Of a stretch of DNA of 36,049 nucleotides, positions 16,647-31,001 are shown in pieces. Under the pieces are notes generated by a model. It was not told where the DNA came from. It worked only from the letters and a program-made list of their open reading frames with translations, and made no database searches. The position numbers were made by a program, and so were the translations under genes. Every line of letters starts with the position of its first letter. Positions within the stretch are counted from its first letter, which is position 1. This DNA comes from Pirellulales bacterium (GTDB lineage Bacteria; Planctomycetota; Planctomycetia; Pirellulales; JAICIG01), in contig DATLUO010000049.1 of assembly GCA_035533075.1 (NCBI GenBank), positions 1 to 36,049 of the forward strand, in the 5' to 3' direction.

Positions 16647-19247
<2,601 letters not shown>

Positions 19248-19274
19248 GGTCGGACGGCCGAAAGGATTCGGTAC

Positions 19275-19424
19275 ATGCAGATCAACGCGGAGCACTATTT
19301 CAATGCGTCGATCGAGCGAATTCATCAAGCTCGGCGTCTGTATCGCGCTGGCGATAGCTACGCGTTTTCGATGTACGCGTCCGGCTTGGCAGTAGAGTGC
19401 ATCCTCAGGGCTTTTCGGTGGAGG
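19275..19424 (+). pseudogene. Truncated HEPN-like gene, N-terminal fragment
   Basis: Directly after gyrB, a frame begins MQINAEHYFNASIERIHQ and continues with ARRLYRAGDSYAFSMYASGLAVE, ILRAFRW. This is the opening helix pair of HEPN-domain proteins (AxxxYxxxxYAxAxYxxGLAxE-type). After about 50 residues the frame runs into the flanking direct repeat and becomes antisense repeat sequence, so the rest of the gene is lost. HEPN proteins are often RNases or nucleotidyltransferase partners in toxin and defence systems. The family call comes from the pattern only. Confidence 0.5.
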
Positions 19425-19755
19425 GGCCAATGCCAGGCAATCGGCCGTGCGGCCGCAGCCTTGCCCCAGTTCCTTCACCACGAAGCCCAGGCTGCGAAAG
19501 GCGTCGGCCGTGCGCTCTTCGAACAACAGCGGGACCGGTTTGTCACCGTCGGCCGCTCTGTAGGGAACGCCCTCTGTGGCGTTCCGCTCCGTGGCGTTCC
19601 GCACACCCCGCGCCAGATCCGCCAGGTCGCACAATGCGGCCGGCAAGAAGGGAAACCGCACGCCCGCGCCGCCGTAGCATAACCGTCCTCGGTTGTGATC
19701 ATCACGGTTGTAGGTGCGGCTGCCATCTCCGCGACCATCCACATCGGCCTCTTCG
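19423..19755 (-). pseudogene. Left copy of the duplicated gene fragment flanking the CRISPR island
   Basis: Read on the minus strand this segment encodes DGRGDGSRTYNRDD, then GAGVRFPFLPAALCDLADLA, and PLLFEERTADAFRSLGFVV followed by GQGCGRTADCLALAP. It is homologous to 26742-27027 in the same orientation. At least three differences between the copies fall at third positions of this frame (GAT/GAC, AAC/AAT, CGT/CGC), so both descend from a real coding sequence. The fragment has no start and no natural end, and it is interrupted by a TGTAGGGAACG-type palindromic unit at 19557-19601. The FEERTADAFRSLGF...ADC pattern recalls the N-terminal part of a PD-(D/E)XK nuclease domain, but this is uncertain. 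Confidence 0.7.
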
Positions 19756-20192
19756 GCGCGCCGGGGCCCGCGGCGCCGTGGTCTTTGGCGGCGGGGCCGC
19801 CGTTTCGTCGCGGTTTTTTCACGGGAGGGTCATTCATGGGCCGGTTCCTCTTTGTTGAAATCCGAAGCAGGGGGGTTGGTTCGCGGCCTTGGGGCACGGT
19901 CCGTTGGACTGCGCAAAATCGTCGATTTCGGCCGTCAAAAAAAACGCCCAAAGCTGACGCGGAATCTGTTGCGCTCGCCACCATCCAGGCTTGCCCCGCT
20001 GGAGCGGTGATTGAACGCCAGAGACCGATTGCCACGGTTCGTCGGCCTAAAAGCTTCCCTCCTTTTACCCGCCGGCTGGCTTGGGATGTGCAAAGTGAGC
20101 ATGGCGATCCGCGCGACGAGCGGCCCGCCACGACCGGCCAACGGTGAGCGCTGCGCTCACCGTTAAACAGTGCGGATTTGGCCGGTCCGCCA

Positions 20193-20218
20193 CGGCTATT
20201 GCAAATTTGCACGAGCCG
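20193..20218. repeat. Hairpin with GCAAATTTGC core, copy 1
   Basis: CGGCT-ATT-GCAAATTTGC-ACG-AGCCG. The core is a 10-bp palindrome and the 5-bp arms are complementary. A further outer pair CCGCC (20187-20191) and GGCGG (20227-20231) extends the symmetry. Confidence 0.8.
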
Positions 20219-20477
20219 CAAAACACGGCGGATTTAGGCATGGTATACCCCAGAAGAGCGGGCTTGGCGGTGGTTCCCCGTTCGCCAATCTCCGTGGCGC
20301 CGAGAGCTTGCACGCTTGCGTCCGCCGCCTTTCATGGGATCTTGTCTGCTGACTTTAGCCGGCCGCTGGCTTGTGGCGCATCGGGCAGCCAACTGCGCAG
20401 TTGCATGTCCGCCAGGTAAAGCGGCGTGGCGACACCCCACCGGTTAGCTACGCCGCAGCGAAAACCCCCGAGAAATC

Positions 20478-20505
20478 CTCGTTATTGCAAATTTGCACAA
20501 ACGAG
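20478..20505. repeat. Hairpin with GCAAATTTGC core, copy 2
   Basis: CTCGTT-ATT-GCAAATTTGC-ACA-AACGAG. The same ATT-GCAAATTTGC-AC core as copy 1, 285 bases away, but with a different and again fully complementary 6-bp arm. Confidence 0.8.
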
Positions 20506-20749
20506 ACGGCGGGCGGCGGCGCGGAAGCGGCGGCTCAGTATACGGGCAGGCGCCGTCGGCCAGGAAGCTTGTCGCCGCTCGGTTCCGTCGATCCCGCTCG
20601 CGACGCAGTCTGCGCGGCCCTTGGCGCCGTCTCGGCTTCCGCGATTTCGTATCGCGGAGTGGACGGCGGCGGTCGCGTGGGCTAGGATTACGCCAAGCTT
20701 CATCTAAAACCTTCAGCGTCGACATCGAACCGCCGACTACTCCGCCTCT

Positions 20750-20785
20750 GTTGCGGATTGCTCGCAGGCCGGGATTGGTTACACT
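20750..20785 (+). CRISPR. Single (solo) type II-C CRISPR repeat
   Basis: A 36-base unit starts GTTGCGGATTGC and ends GATTGGTTACACT. It was identified because it complements the tracrRNA anti-repeat at 26433-26467: GTTGCG pairs with CGCAAC, a 6-7 base internal loop follows, then CGCAGG and CGGGATTGGTTACAC pair with one C-U mismatch between them. That stem-bulge-stem layout is the normal repeat:anti-repeat duplex. The GTTG start and the TACACT end resemble Neisseria-type II-C repeats, whose 3' end carries an extended -10 promoter. The crRNA sense is the plus strand, facing the minus-strand cas operon. No second copy was found, so array size is one. Confidence 0.8.
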
Positions 20786-20834
20786 CTCCCGCCCGGAAGT
20801 CGGCAATTGACATGACCTTGCGGCCGTTGGGGCG

Positions 20835-21164
20835 TCAGAAAAGTTCGAGTTGATCGCCGGGCAGTTCGACCGGACGGCGCATTTTCCCCCAAAAAATGCG
20901 CATCCGCTCGAACTGCTTGTCGGTAATGGTGATGATCCGGACTTCGCCATCAGGGGGCACTCCGCGCTCGACGCGCTGAATGTGGATCGCCGCATTCTCC
21001 TCGCTCGGGCAATGCCTCAAATAGACCGAAAACTGCATCATTGTAAAGCCGTCTTCCAGCAGCAATTTGCGGAAGCGCGCGTACTCCTTTCGGGCACGCT
21101 TGGTGTCGACGGGCAGGTCGAACATCGTCACGACCCACATGCATCGGTATCCGCTGATTCGCAT
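20835..21164 (-). CDS. cas2: CRISPR-associated endoribonuclease-like protein Cas2
   Basis: A 109-residue Cas2 from the ATG at 21164; an internal ATG at 21140 would give the common short start MWVVTMFDLPV. Cas2 is the dimeric bridge of the Cas1-Cas2 spacer integrase. Seen: VVTMFDLPVDTKRARKEYAR (beta-1 and the conserved Asp), FRKLLLEDGFTMMQFSVYLR, and VRIITITDKQFERM. It overlaps the 3' end of cas1 by 37 bases (13 with the shorter start). The solo CRISPR repeat is 49 bases beyond its stop codon, on the opposite coding sense. The protein looks intact. Confidence 0.95.
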   Translation of the reverse strand: MRISGYRCMWVVTMFDLPVDTKRARKEYARFRKLLLEDGFTMMQFSVYLRHCPSEENAAIHIQRVERGVPPDGEVRIITITDKQFERMRIFWGKMRRPVELPGDQLELF

Positions 21165-22072
21165 GGCCGGGGAATCTCCAATCGGCGTGCCGCGCCTTGA
21201 AAGCACTGCACCAACGACGCCGCGTAGCGGTGCAGGGCGACCAGCAGGGGGCCTCGGCCCTCGTCGGTTTCCGTGGGGACGGCCAGCAATTCCAACAGCG
21301 CGGCCTTCGTCGGCTGATCGAGTTCGTTCTGCCCGGCCACGAGCAACTGCCGCACGCGCTCGTCGACGACGGGGCGCAACGGTTCCAGCAAGTCGTCGGC
21401 CAGGCAAAAGGCATTCGCACGGTGCGAATGGTGCAGGCCCAGCGAGGGGAGCAGTCCCGCGGCCACGAGCGCCCGTGCCACCGCCGCGCGCATCACGGCA
21501 TAGCCGTAGTTTAGAAGCGCGTTGGCACCGCCGCCGTCGGGATCGCGGCGGAAGGTGGCGAAATCGGCGCGCCGATCGTCGGGCGCCTCCGTCAGCCAGG
21601 CCGACCAATAGGTCTTGGCGGCTTGTGCCTCGCGGTTCGTCGAATCGCCGGAGCGCACTTCGCTGGCGAGCTGCAGCAGCCTGCGGTGCGAGGGCGAGTC
21701 GGCGGCGAGATTGGCCGCCTGAGCGCGGATTTTTGCCTGCACGATCTGCCGCCACAAGCGTTTGCAGAGGGGTTTGCCCGCCTCGATTTGTTCGCGCACG
21801 CGCCATACCACTTGGCTGTGGTCCGCCAGCGGCACCAGCATGGCGACCGGCAAGTGGTCGCGGCCACAGATCACCAGCGTGGCGTCGGCCTGCGCCAGCG
21901 AGGCCAGCGCGGCGTGCGTATAGGTGGCCTGCGGGTGGTCGACGACCACCACGCCGATGTCTTCGCAGGGGATGCTGCCGACCGTTTCGTCGCCGCGCTT
22001 GAGCGTGAGCTGATTGAGCCGCACGCAGAGGTGCGCGGGTTCGCGGGAGACTTCGATGGTGCGTTTAATCAC
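21128..22072 (-). CDS. cas1: CRISPR-associated endonuclease Cas1
   Basis: A 314-residue type II Cas1 integrase, started at the GTG at 22072 because the family N-terminus is (M)IKRTIEVSREPAHL; a TTG at 22099 would add nine atypical residues. Cas1-Cas2 inserts new spacers at the leader repeat. Seen: LVICGRDHLPVAML, NREAQAAKTYWSAWL with the first metal-binding Glu, LLPSLGLHHSHRANAFCLADDLLEPLRPVVDE with the catalytic His and Asp. All three metal ligands are present, so it should be active even though only one repeat is seen. It follows cas9 by 99 bases; a 14-bp perfect palindrome ACGCTAATTAGCGT (22140-22153) lies in that gap. Confidence 0.95.
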   Translation of the reverse strand: MIKRTIEVSREPAHLCVRLNQLTLKRGDETVGSIPCEDIGVVVVDHPQATYTHAALASLAQADATLVICGRDHLPVAMLVPLADHSQVVWRVREQIEAGKPLCKRLWRQIVQAKIRAQAANLAADSPSHRRLLQLASEVRSGDSTNREAQAAKTYWSAWLTEAPDDRRADFATFRRDPDGGGANALLNYGYAVMRAAVARALVAAGLLPSLGLHHSHRANAFCLADDLLEPLRPVVDERVRQLLVAGQNELDQPTKAALLELLAVPTETDEGRGPLLVALHRYAASLVQCFQGAARRLEIPRPCESADTDACGS

Positions 22073-22171
22073 GCGGCGGTTCTCACGGGCGGCAGCCAAT
22101 TACCATCCGTGTCACGATCGCGGTTCTTCCTACTACTTAACGCTAATTAGCGTCGAAGCGGAATTCCAGTC

Positions 22172-25100
22172 TCAATCCCTCACGAGCTCCGCAATTTTGC
22201 CGAGCGGGCTGACCCGGACCTTCGCGGCGTGGGGCTTGCCGGGCGGCGCCAATTCCTTCAGGTCGCTCGGCGTCGCCGTGAATTGTTCGCGCTTTGAATT
22301 CGGCACTTTTTTTCCCTCGGCGTCCTTGCGCTCACCGGCCGCACGGGCGTCCCAATGGGGCACCAGCACAATGCCGTTGGGCTTGTCGAGTTTAGCAACG
22401 ACGAAGTAGCCGACCGGCCCGGGCGGCTCACCTTTCTTCGCGGGCTTGCCCTTCATCATCAGCATCTCGCCCTCGCAGAGGCTCATCACAAACCGCCCGT
22501 CCTTCTCGTTGTCGGACCGGTCCACAAGCGGATGGGCCGACTCGATCTCCCGCAGCAGCGGGCGGTACTTGGCCCGCTCGGCTTTCGAGAGCTTGCGAAA
22601 ATCCGTCGGTTTTGGAATATCGGCCTTTCGTACCGCGCGCAGTTTGGCGAGCTTGCGCTGCGCGGCCTCGAACGCGGAAACGACCTCACCTTTCCAAACC
22701 TCGACTCCTTTCTTGTTCGCACGGACGCGAACCTCAATGTGATGATTATTTTGGCCGTCGTAAAGGCGTATCGACGTTGGATCATCGAGCTTCCGACGTT
22801 TCCCGGTCGCATAATCACAGTGATCGCGGCCAACGGTTACTGGGTCGTTGTTGCTCCACAGTAGAACGACGCTATGGATGGGTACGCCGCTATCCTGCGT
22901 AAGCGGCCCGTGAAGATCGATAGACCGTTTCAGTTCGACCTTTGTGAATGAATCAGGGTTCAGCCCACGTTGCTCAATCCGCCTTCGTAGTAGGCGTCGC
23001 AGACCGGGGTCGCGCACGATTCCACCTTTTTCAGGCTTTGGATCAACAATTCTTCTGGTAAAGGCATTTGACTTTATGAATCGACGAGCCGCCTTTTCCG
23101 CCTCCGGCGCAGACAGCCTCTTCTTGCCGACGCGAAATCGCCGTGCCAGTCGCTCGATCGCCTCGTCATCGCTCTCTTCACGGGGTAGACGTAGATGCGT
23201 CGGCTTTAGGAAGTCCGTTGGTGCCTCGCCAATGACTGCCTGGCGTACGGTTACACGCGTCTTGACGAGCTCACAATGGACTGTTCCGTTTTGCTTCCAA
23301 ACATCGACCACGGGTCCATACTGCGTTGCTTTATGCAGCGCGCCGATGAGCTTGCGCTTCACATGGCGGTGACAGACTGGCCGCTCCACCGGGCCGTCGC
23401 CAAACACCGCGTCCTCGACCGCCTCGCGCAATTTGTCGCCGGTATTGAAAGGCCGCGGCGGCGAGATGGGATGGGCGCGGCGGTAATTCTCCATTTGCTG
23501 CTCGTCGGCCGTGTTGACTCCCTCGACGTCGGCCCTCATCTCGCGCTTGTCCCAGTCGGCGCGAACCTGTTCCGTCGTCAGTGCAATGACAACCGCGTCG
23601 ATCGCATGATGCCGATGATCGCCTCGGTCCTTTTCCCTGCGCTGTTGTTCTTGCTCGGTGGTGAGTCCCTTCCGCTTTTTGTCATGGCGATCGAAGAACA
23701 GCCCCCACTCGCGCCGCAGGCGGCTGGTCCAGATGCCGTCGGTCGTGAAAATGCGCCGCTCCCCGCCCCGCTCCGGCAAGCCCTTTCCGTCGTAAATGGC
23801 GTCGGCCAGGTAGGCCATCACCTGGCGCGTGGCGTATTTCGTCGCCGCCTCCTGCCGCGCGGTCATTTCCCGGATGTCCTTCACTTCCTTTTTGAACTGA
23901 TCGAGCTTCGCCTTGTCATCCCAGGCCCTGAAATAGCACGACCAAAGAGCCATGCCGTTGGCGTTTTTCATGTCGGAAGCCTTGGGGCGTTCGACGTCGG
24001 CATACATTTTTTCAGCCCAAGCAATGCCTTCGGCGAAACCTCCTGGGAGCGTCAACTCCCAAAATTGACGCGGCGTGCGCCGCTCCATCTCGCGGTTGCA
24101 CTTGGTATGTGCGAGGACGATGTTGCCAAGGCCGTTGTGACCGCCGCTAGCGCGTGGGATGATGTGAGCGACTTCGCATCCTTCGCCGATGGCCGCCTTG
24201 CGGAGCGTCAGGCCATCGTTCCCGTCGGGGCCGATCCGCTTTCCGCATAGCGGGCAAATGCAACCTTGCTGGACGGCCAGTACAACGCGGTCGACCGCCG
24301 CGCGCTGCTGCGTCGCGCTCACGGAGTGAAGATTGAACTCCTCGAGGATGTCATTCCGAATTCGATTCCGTAGGCGGTTCTTGAACAGCAGCCGGTCGGC
24401 GTCTTTTTTCCCCATCCGTGCTTCGCGGGCCAACTCGATAAACACGTAGTCGGGCCGCCTGCGAAAGGTCACCATATACTCGACCAGGTGCCGCCGCACC
24501 TCGTGGATCGCTTTCCGCACGACCGGATTGCTGAGAAGCGGGGCGGGCGGCGGCTCGGCAAGCGGCTTGCCGTCGCAATCGAGCACCGGCTCACCGTTGT
24601 GGTACAGGACGTGTTTGGCCAAGTAATGGCGGTCCCTCGCTGTGGCGCCCTTGGCGCCCGTGGCATAGCGTTTGAATTCAGGCGAATTTTCAGCGTTCTC
24701 GTGCGCTTCTGAAGACGATAGCCCTTCCTCCAGCAGCGCCTCTGTGAGCTTTCGCTTGACGGCCTGAGCATGAGCCTTTCGGGCCTCGATCTGTGTCATC
24801 CAGCGATGTCGGGCGGGGTCGAAAGCGGTGTCTTTCCGCCAACGAACTGGAATCTGCCCGTCCTGGCCATCCACTTCCGTAAACGCCTCATCCATGTAAG
24901 GAAGGATTTTGCAGACAGCGCGGCGACTCATTTTCAGTCGCTTGGCATCGAGCTTGGGCCGGCGTTTCCAGGCGGCGACGAGCGCATCCGCCTGAGTTTC
25001 GGAAAGCGCGGCCCACGTCATCACGCCGCTTTTCAAACGCTCCGCCGCACCCTCTTGCTCGGGATCGAATTTCAGGATTGCGCGATTGATTCCCTCGCGG

Positions 25101-26374
25101 ACGTTCGCCCGCATTGCCGACCATTTGTCGAGCGTTACCGCGCCGTGGACGATCTCGCGGCTGAACCAGTCGGTGTTAATCTCGCGGTTTTCATCGGCCT
25201 CGATGTTGAAGCGAAATTGGCTGTGCTTGCTGAACCGTTCGCCCCAGCCTTCATCCGCGGTGCCCATGAGCCGCCGCAGATCGCTCACCGTGACTTTCGT
25301 TTTCGGGCGCTCGGCCGCCGAACCGTTTGCCTTCTTGGTTTTCTTGGGCTTTTCCATGCCGAGCGGCCCGCTCAAGTAGGCCCTGATTTTCTCGCGTTCC
25401 TCGACCGTGAGCGGCCGCGGCGGCTTGCCGCGTTCAATGATCTTAAGATTGTTTACTGTCTCAATGACGAGGTAGCACGAGGCGTACATGTCAGCGTGCG
25501 GGGCGCAGCGTTCCGTGGGCTCGAGAACGCAGCGCCCCAAGGTGCCAAGATCCCACGACGCCCGGCGCTGGCCGAATAGTAAACCGCGATGACGCCAAAT
25601 CGCGTCGCCTGATTCGTCGTCGAGCGTCCGGCGCAGTTCATCCGTGAGCAGCGGCGCCGGCTCGCCGGCGAGCGACTTTTGCTTATCCCAAAGCCGGCGG
25701 AATTCATCGCGGATCATTTCGCGGTCGGCGCAGTGCTCATAGATGCCTGGTTTATTGCGGACCGCCGCGCGAAACTCACGTGGGCCTTTGCGCTTATCGG
25801 TTGGTCGCCGGTCCGGTGTGGTAATGGCGGTCACGCGCTGGGCCCGAATTGCGGCGATGAATTCGCCGAACGTCCCCACGTTCAGATCTCGCATTTTTGC
25901 GCGCACTTCGTTGATGGCGGCCTTCACTTTTCCGTCATCGCCGCTGTCACCGTCATCGGTTTCGTCGGGTTCGGCGAGTTTGAGTCCGAGCGCGCCGCGA
26001 CGCTGCGCTAGGTGCAGGAGTACGCGACCAAACTGATGTGCCGTCAGCGGCTCAGCCAGACCTCTGCGCCGCAGTTCCCAAGGGTCCGTGGTTTCCAACA
26101 GCCGCTTGAATTCCTCAGAGGTGGGTGGCAACAGGCCCACCTCGATGAGCTTCAACCGCAACTCGCGTTTTCGCGTGGCCCGCCGCCGTAGCGTGATTCG
26201 CGTCCGCCGTGTCATGCGGCGCTTGGCGTTCTTCGGATCACCGCGCTTGTCGTCCGACTCGTCAACGCCGGCAGGGAAGATCGAAACTCCCGCGGTGATT
26301 TCGCCGCTGTCTGTATCGGTCCACACGGAGCCGACGGAGTTGGAACCAATGTCGAAGCCGAGGTAGGTAGGCAT
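22172..26374 (-). CDS. cas9: CRISPR-associated endonuclease Cas9 (type II-C-like, large)
   Basis: A 1400-residue Cas9, long for II-C (commonly about 1000-1150). The ATG at 26374 gives MPTYLGFDIGSNSVGSVW, the RuvC-I start with catalytic D8; upstream in-frame codons lie over the tracrRNA promoter. Domains in order: RuvC-I; Arg-rich bridge helix (RRMTRRTRITLRRRATRKR, about 50-75); a long REC region; RuvC-II FIELAREARMG with Glu near 646; a zinc-ribbon-like CPLCGKRIG; HNH CEVAHIIPRASGG...GNIVLAHTKCN with His737 and Asn760; RuvC-III DHRHHAIDAVVIAL near 920; then about 450 residues of wedge/PAM-interacting region. The residue before the HNH histidine is Ala736, where most Cas9 proteins have Asp. 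The frame is intact. cas1 and cas2 follow; no csn2 or cas4 is present. Confidence 0.97.
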   Translation of the reverse strand: MPTYLGFDIGSNSVGSVWTDTDSGEITAGVSIFPAGVDESDDKRGDPKNAKRRMTRRTRITLRRRATRKRELRLKLIEVGLLPPTSEEFKRLLETTDPWELRRRGLAEPLTAHQFGRVLLHLAQRRGALGLKLAEPDETDDGDSGDDGKVKAAINEVRAKMRDLNVGTFGEFIAAIRAQRVTAITTPDRRPTDKRKGPREFRAAVRNKPGIYEHCADREMIRDEFRRLWDKQKSLAGEPAPLLTDELRRTLDDESGDAIWRHRGLLFGQRRASWDLGTLGRCVLEPTERCAPHADMYASCYLVIETVNNLKIIERGKPPRPLTVEEREKIRAYLSGPLGMEKPKKTKKANGSAAERPKTKVTVSDLRRLMGTADEGWGERFSKHSQFRFNIEADENREINTDWFSREIVHGAVTLDKWSAMRANVREGINRAILKFDPEQEGAAERLKSGVMTWAALSETQADALVAAWKRRPKLDAKRLKMSRRAVCKILPYMDEAFTEVDGQDGQIPVRWRKDTAFDPARHRWMTQIEARKAHAQAVKRKLTEALLEEGLSSSEAHENAENSPEFKRYATGAKGATARDRHYLAKHVLYHNGEPVLDCDGKPLAEPPPAPLLSNPVVRKAIHEVRRHLVEYMVTFRRRPDYVFIELAREARMGKKDADRLLFKNRLRNRIRNDILEEFNLHSVSATQQRAAVDRVVLAVQQGCICPLCGKRIGPDGNDGLTLRKAAIGEGCEVAHIIPRASGGHNGLGNIVLAHTKCNREMERRTPRQFWELTLPGGFAEGIAWAEKMYADVERPKASDMKNANGMALWSCYFRAWDDKAKLDQFKKEVKDIREMTARQEAATKYATRQVMAYLADAIYDGKGLPERGGERRIFTTDGIWTSRLRREWGLFFDRHDKKRKGLTTEQEQQRREKDRGDHRHHAIDAVVIALTTEQVRADWDKREMRADVEGVNTADEQQMENYRRAHPISPPRPFNTGDKLREAVEDAVFGDGPVERPVCHRHVKRKLIGALHKATQYGPVVDVWKQNGTVHCELVKTRVTVRQAVIGEAPTDFLKPTHLRLPREESDDEAIERLARRFRVGKKRLSAPEAEKAARRFIKSNAFTRRIVDPKPEKGGIVRDPGLRRLLRRRIEQRGLNPDSFTKVELKRSIDLHGPLTQDSGVPIHSVVLLWSNNDPVTVGRDHCDYATGKRRKLDDPTSIRLYDGQNNHHIEVRVRANKKGVEVWKGEVVSAFEAAQRKLAKLRAVRKADIPKPTDFRKLSKAERAKYRPLLREIESAHPLVDRSDNEKDGRFVMSLCEGEMLMMKGKPAKKGEPPGPVGYFVVAKLDKPNGIVLVPHWDARAAGERKDAEGKKVPNSKREQFTATPSDLKELAPPGKPHAAKVRVSPLGKIAELVRD

Positions 26375-26431: not shown

Positions 26432-26535
26432 CCGTGTAACCAATCCCGTCCTGCGGTTTTACGCAACAAGAGTAAATCGCAGGCACCGCCTTACGGCGAC
26501 CGCCGCAGCCCGCACAAACGGCCTGCGGCTTTTTT
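26432..26535 (+). ncRNA. tracrRNA
   Basis: About 104 nt, divergent from cas9. Parts in order: anti-repeat 26433-26467 (GTGTAACCAATCCCG, then U, CCUGCG, a GUUUUA loop side, CGCAAC), which pairs with the solo CRISPR repeat; a linker with AAGAGUAAAU; a nexus-like hairpin CGCC-UUAC-GGCG at about 26487-26498; and a terminator hairpin GCCGCAG...CTGCGGC followed by six T. The promoter, duplex, nexus and terminator together make the call strong. The RNA would recruit crRNA to Cas9 and permit RNase III processing. Confidence 0.85.
26502..26535 (+). terminator. Intrinsic terminator of the tracrRNA
   Basis: A 7-bp stem GCCGCAG (26502-26508) / CTGCGGC (26523-26529) with a 14-base loop, followed by T at 26530-26535. 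Confidence 0.85.
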
Positions 26536-26660
26536 GTTGCCGCTGCAGATTAACGCGCCTTCCGAGTGGCTGCAACCATTGTCCGGAATGCCATGCCAAG
26601 CGGCGGAGCACGCTCCTGCGTCCCGCCGTCTGCGGTCCACGGCCTACGTAGCTATTTGAC

Positions 26661-26689
26661 CCGCCATGGGAAACCAGGGCGGCTTTTTT
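26661..26689 (+). terminator. Second intrinsic terminator downstream of the tracrRNA
   Basis: CCGCC-A-TGG-GAAA-CCA-G-GGCGG-C followed by six T. The stem has one A-G mismatch and closes on a GNRA-type GAAA tetraloop. It is 150 bases beyond the tracrRNA terminator, so it either backs it up or ends a second transcript lying in 26536-26660. Confidence 0.75.
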
Positions 26690-27147
26690 CATGCGCCGGC
26701 GCGGGGCCCTGCCACGAGCGGCCAGCCAAGGTCGGTCGGCCGGGGCCAATGCCCGGCAGCGGCCGACCGGCCGCAGCCTTGCCCCAGTTCTTTCACCACG
26801 AAACCCAGGCTGCGAAAGGCGTCGGCGCAGCGCTCTTCGAACAACAGCGGAACGTTTGCCTCGTCGTCGACCGACGCTCCGCAGGCCAGGTCGGCCAGAT
26901 CGCGGAGTCGGGCCGGCAAGAAGGGAAACCGCACGCCCGCGCCGCCGTAGCATAACCGTCCTCGGTTGTGCTCATCGCGATTGTAGGTGCGGCTGCCGTC
27001 TCCGCGACCATCCACATCGGCGTCTTCCTCTCTCGGCGAAGGCGAAGAGATCCTGATTCCCGCGGCGGCGATGGAATCGCGATCATGCCCCTCGGCACGC
27101 ATCTGGAGTACCGCGTCGCGCTGCTGCTGGTTGATCCGCTTCGGCAT
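26689..27147 (-). pseudogene. Right copy of the duplicated gene, C-terminally truncated HTH-containing protein
   Basis: On the minus strand a 152-residue frame starts MPKRINQQQRDAVLQMRAEG, HDRDSIAAAG (a helix-turn-helix-like opening), then enters the shared part DGRGDGSRTYNRDEHNRGR, GAGVRFPFLPARLRDLADLA and PLLFEERCADAFRSLGFVV. Homology to the left copy covers 26742-27027 (about 286 bp) and stops at GCGR; the remaining residues up to 26689 run through a T-rich terminator and look non-native. So this copy keeps the N-terminus and has lost the C-terminal part. A fusion of an HTH segment to the start of a PD-(D/E)XK-like nuclease is the best guess, at low confidence. Whether it is expressed is unknown. 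Confidence 0.6.
26742..27027. repeat. Direct repeat (right copy) flanking the CRISPR-Cas island
   Basis: Same orientation as 19423-19755. Both copies begin GGGGCCAATGCC and end CCACATCGGC(C/G)TCTTC. Longest shared blocks include the stretch around CGTAGCATAACCGTCCTCGG. The left copy is longer because of an internal palindromic unit. Together they bracket about 7 kb containing cas2, cas1, cas9, the tracrRNA and the solo repeat. Confidence 0.85.
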
Positions 27148-30294: not shown

Positions 30295-30624
30295 TCAGCC
30301 CGCCATGACTCGCACCTTGCCTTGCGCCCGCGGGCGTGGAGGAGAGACGGTAATTTGCACGTCGCAGCCCAGCGCGTTCAAAAAGCGGAACAGTCGGTCG
30401 GTCGAGAAACCGTCCAGCCGGCCATTCAGCAAGGCAGAAACCTTGGGTTGGTTGATTCCCAAAATCTTACCTGTGGCTGCTTGGGTCAAGCGGCGTTTTT
30501 GTACAATTCTCAGGATCCTCGCCGCTAATTCGGCTTTCGCCAAGTATTGTTCGGGATTTGGAATCCGTAGGTCGGCAAACACGTTGCCGCTACTCTCGTG
30601 GATCGCTGTACTTTCCTTGCTCAT
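30295..30624 (-). CDS. higA: HigA-type XRE antitoxin
   Basis: A 109-residue helix-turn-helix protein. Seen: AELAARILRIVQKRRLTQAATGKILGINQPKVSALLNGR, the XRE helix-turn-helix with the short family pattern LTQxxxxxxLGIxQPxVSxLxxGR, then FSTDRLFRFLNALGCDVQITV, typical of the HTH_37 antitoxin group. It would neutralise the toxin and repress the operon. Its start overlaps the toxin stop by four bases (30621-30624), so the pair is coupled, with the toxin gene first as in higBA loci. The C-terminal tail is basic and proline-rich. Confidence 0.92.
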   Translation of the reverse strand: MSKESTAIHESSGNVFADLRIPNPEQYLAKAELAARILRIVQKRRLTQAATGKILGINQPKVSALLNGRLDGFSTDRLFRFLNALGCDVQITVSPPRPRAQGKVRVMAG

Positions 30625-31001
30625 TCTTTGAATTCCTGCCGGTATTGCTCCGCGGCGAGTTTCAGCCGCCCCTTGATGATCGCGAGATGCGTCATGGGTG
30701 TGGCGGTCCCTTTCTTCGATTTTTTCTGAAACGCATGCAGAACATAGACAATCTTCGAGAACTTCACGGTATAAACGGCGCGATAGGTGTTTCCGTCATG
30801 GTCGACGACAACCTCCAGTACGCCTGCGCCGCCGAAGCCTTTGAGCGGCTTTGCCTTGACCGCCTTCATACCGATTTGCGCCAGGTAGAGAGCGTAACCC
30901 GCTTCTCGACGAGCCTCGCGCGGAAACGCATCGAGTTCTTCCTTCGATGTCCCCACCCAGCGCAACGGCTTCATGGGCGTCGCCGAAGTCGGATCGTCCA
31001 T
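30621..31001 (-). CDS. higB: HigB/Gp49-type (RelE superfamily) toxin
   Basis: A 126-residue member of the phage-derived Gp49-like / HigB family of ribosome-dependent mRNA interferases. Seen: KPLRWVGTSKEELDAFPREARREAGYAL at the N-terminus, then AKPLKGFGGAGVLEV, the core strands NTYRAVYTVKFSKIVYVLHAF, and QKKSKKGTATPMTHL. The order FxKKSxKG with basic residues is the usual active-site neighbourhood. The start ATG at 31001 follows a promoter so closely that the message may be leaderless. Antitoxin gene directly downstream. Frame intact. Confidence 0.92.
   Translation of the reverse strand: MDDPTSATPMKPLRWVGTSKEELDAFPREARREAGYALYLAQIGMKAVKAKPLKGFGGAGVLEVVVDHDGNTYRAVYTVKFSKIVYVLHAFQKKSKKGTATPMTHLAIIKGRLKLAAEQYRQEFKE

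Follow-up and report, generated by a model that had tools for sequence, protein, structure and literature searches.

A type II-C CRISPR-Cas locus of a planctomycete combines complete cas9, cas1 and cas2 genes and a matching tracrRNA with one solitary CRISPR repeat, and the comparison with related loci makes it probable that an ordinary array was contracted here by the deletion of repeat-spacer units until the leader-proximal repeat alone was left. The stretch of DNA that was analysed (the window, 36,049 nt) is one whole contig (G000:C49) of an assembly of 8.54 Mb that is 99% complete and consists of 296 contigs. From left to right, the window carries dnaN, gyrB (to 19247), an interval of 1.5 kb, the 36-nt repeat, cas2, cas1, cas9 and the tracrRNA. 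The three cas genes are located on the minus strand, the repeat and the tracrRNA on the plus strand. The features are as follows:

19423-19754, no strand assigned: dispersed genomic repeat between gyrB and the CRISPR repeat, with a further copy at 26742-27027
20750-20785, plus strand: single 36-nt CRISPR repeat, unique in the genome and arrayed in relatives
20786-20834, no strand assigned: leader interval of 49 nt between the repeat and the cas2 stop, with a length of 47-50 nt kept in relatives
20835-21164, minus strand: cas2 (PF09827, TIGR01573, PADLOC Cas2_II)
21128-22099, minus strand: cas1 of type II (TIGR03639, 228 bits; alignment with 5xvn)
22172-26374, minus strand: cas9, 1400 aa (TIGR01865, 344 bits; RuvC and HNH motifs)
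26434-26535, plus strand: tracrRNA, with the anti-repeat at 26434-26467 followed by hairpins and a T-run (pairing; fold z-score -3.5; homologues in relatives)
26655-26690, plus strand: remnant with similarity to the 3' end of a second type of tracrRNA (22-nt match with G011; compared with the tracrRNA tails of G469 and others)

Since family scans of the ORFs around the operon detected only cas9, cas1 and cas2, without csn2 or cas4, the layout of the locus is that of type II-C. The scores of Cas2, Cas1 (type II) and Cas9 exceed the curated cut-offs, and none of the three frames is interrupted by a stop in the window. The catalytic residues E, H and E of Cas1 align with those of 5xvn. Cas9 possesses both domains that define a type II effector, RuvC (motifs FDIGSNS, IELARE and HHAID; Pfam RuvC_III) and HNH (motif CEVAHIIP; Pfam HNH). 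Differences between families in cas9, cas1 and cas2 concentrate at third codon positions, which shows, at the level of sequence, a long-term constraint on the cas genes; as this is a comparison between families, the constraint may be older than the loss of the array. In the Cas9 tree, the window protein groups with those of G018 and OFTM33 in a clade of full support, outside which G454 is placed, and the Cas9 of G239 is 60% identical to it over the whole length and encoded in the same layout.

The repeat, GTTGCGGATTGCTCGCAGGCCGGGATTGGTTACACT, occurs once in the window, with zero occurrences expected, and once in the whole assembly when up to three mismatches are allowed or a relaxed pattern is used; neither search revealed another CRISPR array carrying it in this genome. 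No second unit is present on either side of 20750-20785, since within 2.6 kb the closest other 36-mer differs at 17 positions, as many as in shuffled DNA. An array is defined by at least two repeats separated by a spacer, and the window contains one repeat only. Because a near-identical 36-mer is arrayed at a spacing of 65-66 nt in relatives, the unit is, on this sequence comparison, a genuine type II-C CRISPR repeat and not merely a stretch complementary to the tracrRNA. Genome G018, from another family of the same order, carries the window 36-mer with one mismatch in two copies 65 nt apart, and OFTM33, named Phycisphaerales bacterium, carries a related 36-mer in three copies. In addition, a pattern search of 392 genomes of the phylum detected six other genomes with arrays of this repeat family, each containing 5 to 55 copies.

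The predicted duplex of the repeat with the anti-repeat comprises 6 bp (GTTGCG/CGCAAC), an internal loop and then 21 of 22 possible pairs, in keeping with the repeat-complementary tracrRNA of type II systems. Its energy is -53.1 kcal/mol, whereas unrelated 36-mers of the window reach about -33.6 kcal/mol at best; the entries at -44.4 and -39.1, although stronger, overlap the tracrRNA complement and the repeat itself and were set aside. The window repeat pairs with the window tracrRNA better than the repeats of 23 relatives do, and the locus's own repeat was the best partner among 24 in 11 of the 12 loci tested, including the single-repeat loci G000 (the window) and G008. The latter displays a compensated change, GATACACT/GTGTATC, that is common to repeat and tracrRNA. 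Judged by these predicted pairings, repeat and anti-repeat co-vary across the clade. The original prediction had described a single 36-nt unit beside cas2, no second unit at the expected spacing, a duplex of 6 bp, an internal loop and 21 bp with one mismatch, and intact-looking Cas1, Cas2 and Cas9. These statements were borne out, with exact coordinates for the unit and all catalytic motifs looked for being found, and the genome search that it had proposed returned a single copy at up to three mismatches. Just left of the repeat, at 20687-20701, GATTACGCCAAGCTT is identical to a 15-mer from the lacZ-alpha polylinker that common cloning vectors carry, a likeness that is probably due to chance.

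A Cas1 search of 396 genomes of the order provided about 27 close loci, which were taken with their flanks. In about 20 relatives, the array is positioned on the same side of cas2 as in the window, with the repeats pointing at cas2. The nearest repeat is 47-50 nt away from the cas2 stop, the exceptions being G580, which is divergent, and G545, in which cas2 is broken. As the window repeat is canonical and its distance of 49 nt matches this spacing, the surviving copy is, by sequence and position, the leader-proximal repeat through which acquisition would proceed. In II-C arrays, spacers enter via the last repeat, repeats bear their own promoters and the first repeat is an 'extra' one (PMC12080349; PMC12638026). 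Degenerate repeats, taken as the mark of the oldest array end, are found at the end far from cas2 in G494 and G545, which fits this published polarity; the single repeat of the window itself gives none. Two blocks, CTAA and TTGCG, are weakly conserved in the leaders of the relatives. In the window, CTAA is replaced by GGAA, a deviation that may impair acquisition. The start of the leader (20786-20800 in the window, and its counterparts in relatives) tends to complement the centre of its own repeat, with 5-7 bp in many loci and a mean longest stem of 4.8 versus 4.3 in permuted pairs (a mean reached by 8 of 300 permutations). A leader-repeat hairpin is not claimed, the register varying between loci.

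Additional solitary repeats of the same family were observed on the tracrRNA side of cas9 in G490, G494, G502, G043 and G011 (L095:5185, L075:11583, L083:3516, L087:3435 and L012:4039), and one of these, in G011, directly precedes a HicB-like ORF. In G770 (L074), which has cas9, cas1, cas2 and a leader-like interval, no recognisable repeat is present left of cas2 within the 193 nt that remain up to the contig end.

Comparison with close relatives, as suggested alongside the original prediction, demonstrated that loci of the same layout hold between 1 and 46 repeats. Counted over the loci whose arrays stay within a contig, the numbers are 1 (G000, G008 and G561), 2 (G018), 3 (OFTM33 and G545), 4, 5, 7, 18, 21, 27, 32, 32, 35 and 46. 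The single repeat is the low tail of this distribution and not a property of the window effector, since G239, which shares its Cas9 clade and layout, holds at least 29 repeats. The idea that the clade with the large Cas9 inherently has mini-arrays (1, 2 and 3 repeats in G000, G018 and OFTM33) was rejected on the same grounds, with at least 29 repeats in G239 and at least 5 in G167, both of that clade.

Several explanations for the solitary repeat can be weighed against each other. Collapse of an array to one repeat is the best supported of the options that had been proposed, because long arrays are present in relatives that share the layout and the Cas9 clade of the window, and because it is the leader-proximal repeat that survived; the loss itself is deduced from these relatives and not from a conspecific with a longer array. 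That the locus was never expanded, as had also been considered, is unlikely. Deletion of spacers in blocks is a common event with a heavy-tailed distribution (PMC11472070), and loci with a lone repeat were already recorded in a survey that covered Escherichia and Salmonella (PMC2886076). An assembler could instead have joined the left flank, one repeat and the leader while skipping the units of a real multi-repeat array, given that an identical 36-nt repeat is shorter than the k-mers common in early assembly steps and that the assembly is fragmented. This is unlikely, as long arrays in this group break contigs and do not collapse (the contig terminates within or at the array in G469, G454, G552, G753, G043, G490 and G513), whereas the window contig runs through the repeat site, and independent assemblies also present short arrays of 1 (G008, G561), 2 (G018) and 3 (OFTM33) repeats. 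That the Cas9 is served in trans by active arrays at another genomic site or on an unbinned plasmid would agree with the intact tracrRNA and effector and with the solitary or short repeat clusters that occur away from cas2 in relatives (near the tracrRNA in G490, G494, G502 and G043). The 99%-complete assembly, searched as described above, gave no support to this earlier suggestion and makes it quite improbable; related Cas9 proteins were found neither on plasmid records nor in viral contigs.

A locus that was newly acquired or reset with one repeat, and whose expansion is still to come, is highly improbable: leader and one repeat do constitute a minimal acceptor and a transfer is plausible, with the window Cas1 being closest (72%) to that of G028 from another family, but a donor array had to shrink to one repeat anyway and the interval left of the repeat is old enough to have been filled by dispersed repeats. 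Only a very slight chance is assigned to a non-immune function, in which a fixed repeat-derived RNA would act with the tracrRNA and Cas9 to regulate or sense something. Here, the fact that three loci adjacent to gyrB, from three families, have only one or two repeats and yet a co-varying tracrRNA can be counted in favour, whereas the would-be guide sequence differs among these loci, finds no genomic target beyond chance and is not preceded by a sigma-70-type promoter, and arrays of the ordinary kind are found in close relatives that share the machinery. The 20 nt to the left of the repeat had four other genomic matches, all with three mismatches, which were rejected as self-targets against seven for a reversed-pattern control, and no exact match was detected in viral contigs, so that the non-immune role raised in the original prediction gained no positive evidence. 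The single spacer of G018 likewise had no exact match in viral contigs, in which no window-type repeat was found. Terminator-like sites at 19758-19814 (plus strand) were not clearly above shuffles.

Representatives of three families within one order have cas loci immediately downstream of gyrB (window 16656-20785; L009:7763-10663; L011:2640-5281). The distance from the gyrB stop codon to the start of the repeat is 44 nt in G008, 135 nt in G018 and 1,502 nt in G000, where the interval has taken up dispersed repeats. All three loci have one or two repeats, versus 1 of 13 other complete arrays (hypergeometric 0.007, calculated by hand after the data had been seen). This association represents a lead and not a result, and could be due to ascertainment, since contigs break at long arrays, which conceals gyrB. 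The cas1 gene of G008 is an open frame of 320 aa. In the Cas1 tree, G000, G008 and G018 are not grouped exclusively. The possibility that the three represent a II-C lineage long kept at one or two repeats and not decaying, through a continual reset of memory or a task that needs no spacers, is considered quite improbable. G018 has two tracrRNAs (L009:16498 and L009:16987) that flank a HicB-like ORF; one belongs to the window type, the other to the G008 type. In the window, the second (G008-type) tracrRNA is represented only by a similar tail at 26655-26690. The presence of both types in one genome and of the tail in the other suggests that a Cas9-tracrRNA module may have been replaced beside a persisting cas1-cas2-repeat unit. 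No shared, conserved gene was found on the right flank of the locus or, in relatives lacking cas genes at that place, behind gyrB, and an empty site could therefore not be reconstructed.

Under the favoured contraction, the window locus would now store no guide. A promoter within the repeat, as is usual in II-C, would drive transcription into the leader and antisense to cas2 without meeting a further repeat, and a guide-like 'extraneous' crRNA could be obtained only by read-through from the left of the repeat. Because II-C arrays acquire through their last repeat, Cas1-Cas2 could still use the solitary copy as an acceptor and the locus could rebuild its memory. As cas1, cas2, a leader and one repeat represent the minimal acceptor, the system is probably emptied yet rechargeable and still able to acquire. 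With its Cas9 machinery complete and only a leader and one repeat beside it, such a locus would be a natural 'blank tape', allowing a test of whether memory-less machinery is retained for future acquisition and of how often II-C arrays get wiped and rebuilt. The present weight of this single case, at the low end of 1 to 46 repeats in relatives, is modest.

The locus resembles known type II-C systems in its gene order, its type II Cas1 together with Cas2, the tracrRNA pairing, the 36-nt repeat and the presumed acquisition end adjoining cas2, and departs from them in having one repeat and no spacer. Its Cas9 of 1400 aa is longer than that of most relatives studied here (about 1050-1150 aa). As in contracted or single-repeat loci (PMC2886076; PMC11472070), the array was probably cut to one repeat by the loss of units, but the set of cas genes is complete here and the repeat has kept its match to the tracrRNA. 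The window repeat is also the 'extra' repeat described for II-C ecrRNAs (PMC12080349), and any RNA derived from it would be an ecrRNA; in contrast to those, it is unmutated and has no other crRNA to compete with. Solitary repeats of viruses and mobile elements (Racr, PMC10651486; mini-CRISPR arrays, PMC6858448) share the feature of one repeat without an array. These are located in viral genomes away from a cas operon, whereas the window repeat occupies its native chromosomal place by intact cas genes, 49 nt from cas2 and next to dnaN-gyrB, and thus does not represent a virus-borne repeat or RNA anti-CRISPR. The locus can be regarded as a further case of the known single-repeat loci, with a small chance that the loci adjacent to gyrB hold something beyond this.

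The interval 19423-20517 is a mosaic of dispersed repeats, and the copies at 19423-19754 and 26742-27027 are 77% identical, share the same orientation and lie one on each side of the cas cassette. Further to the right, at 30295-31001, two neighbouring minus-strand genes encode a Gp49-like protein (PF05973) and an HTH_37 protein (PF13744), which is the composition of a HigB-HigA toxin-antitoxin pair.
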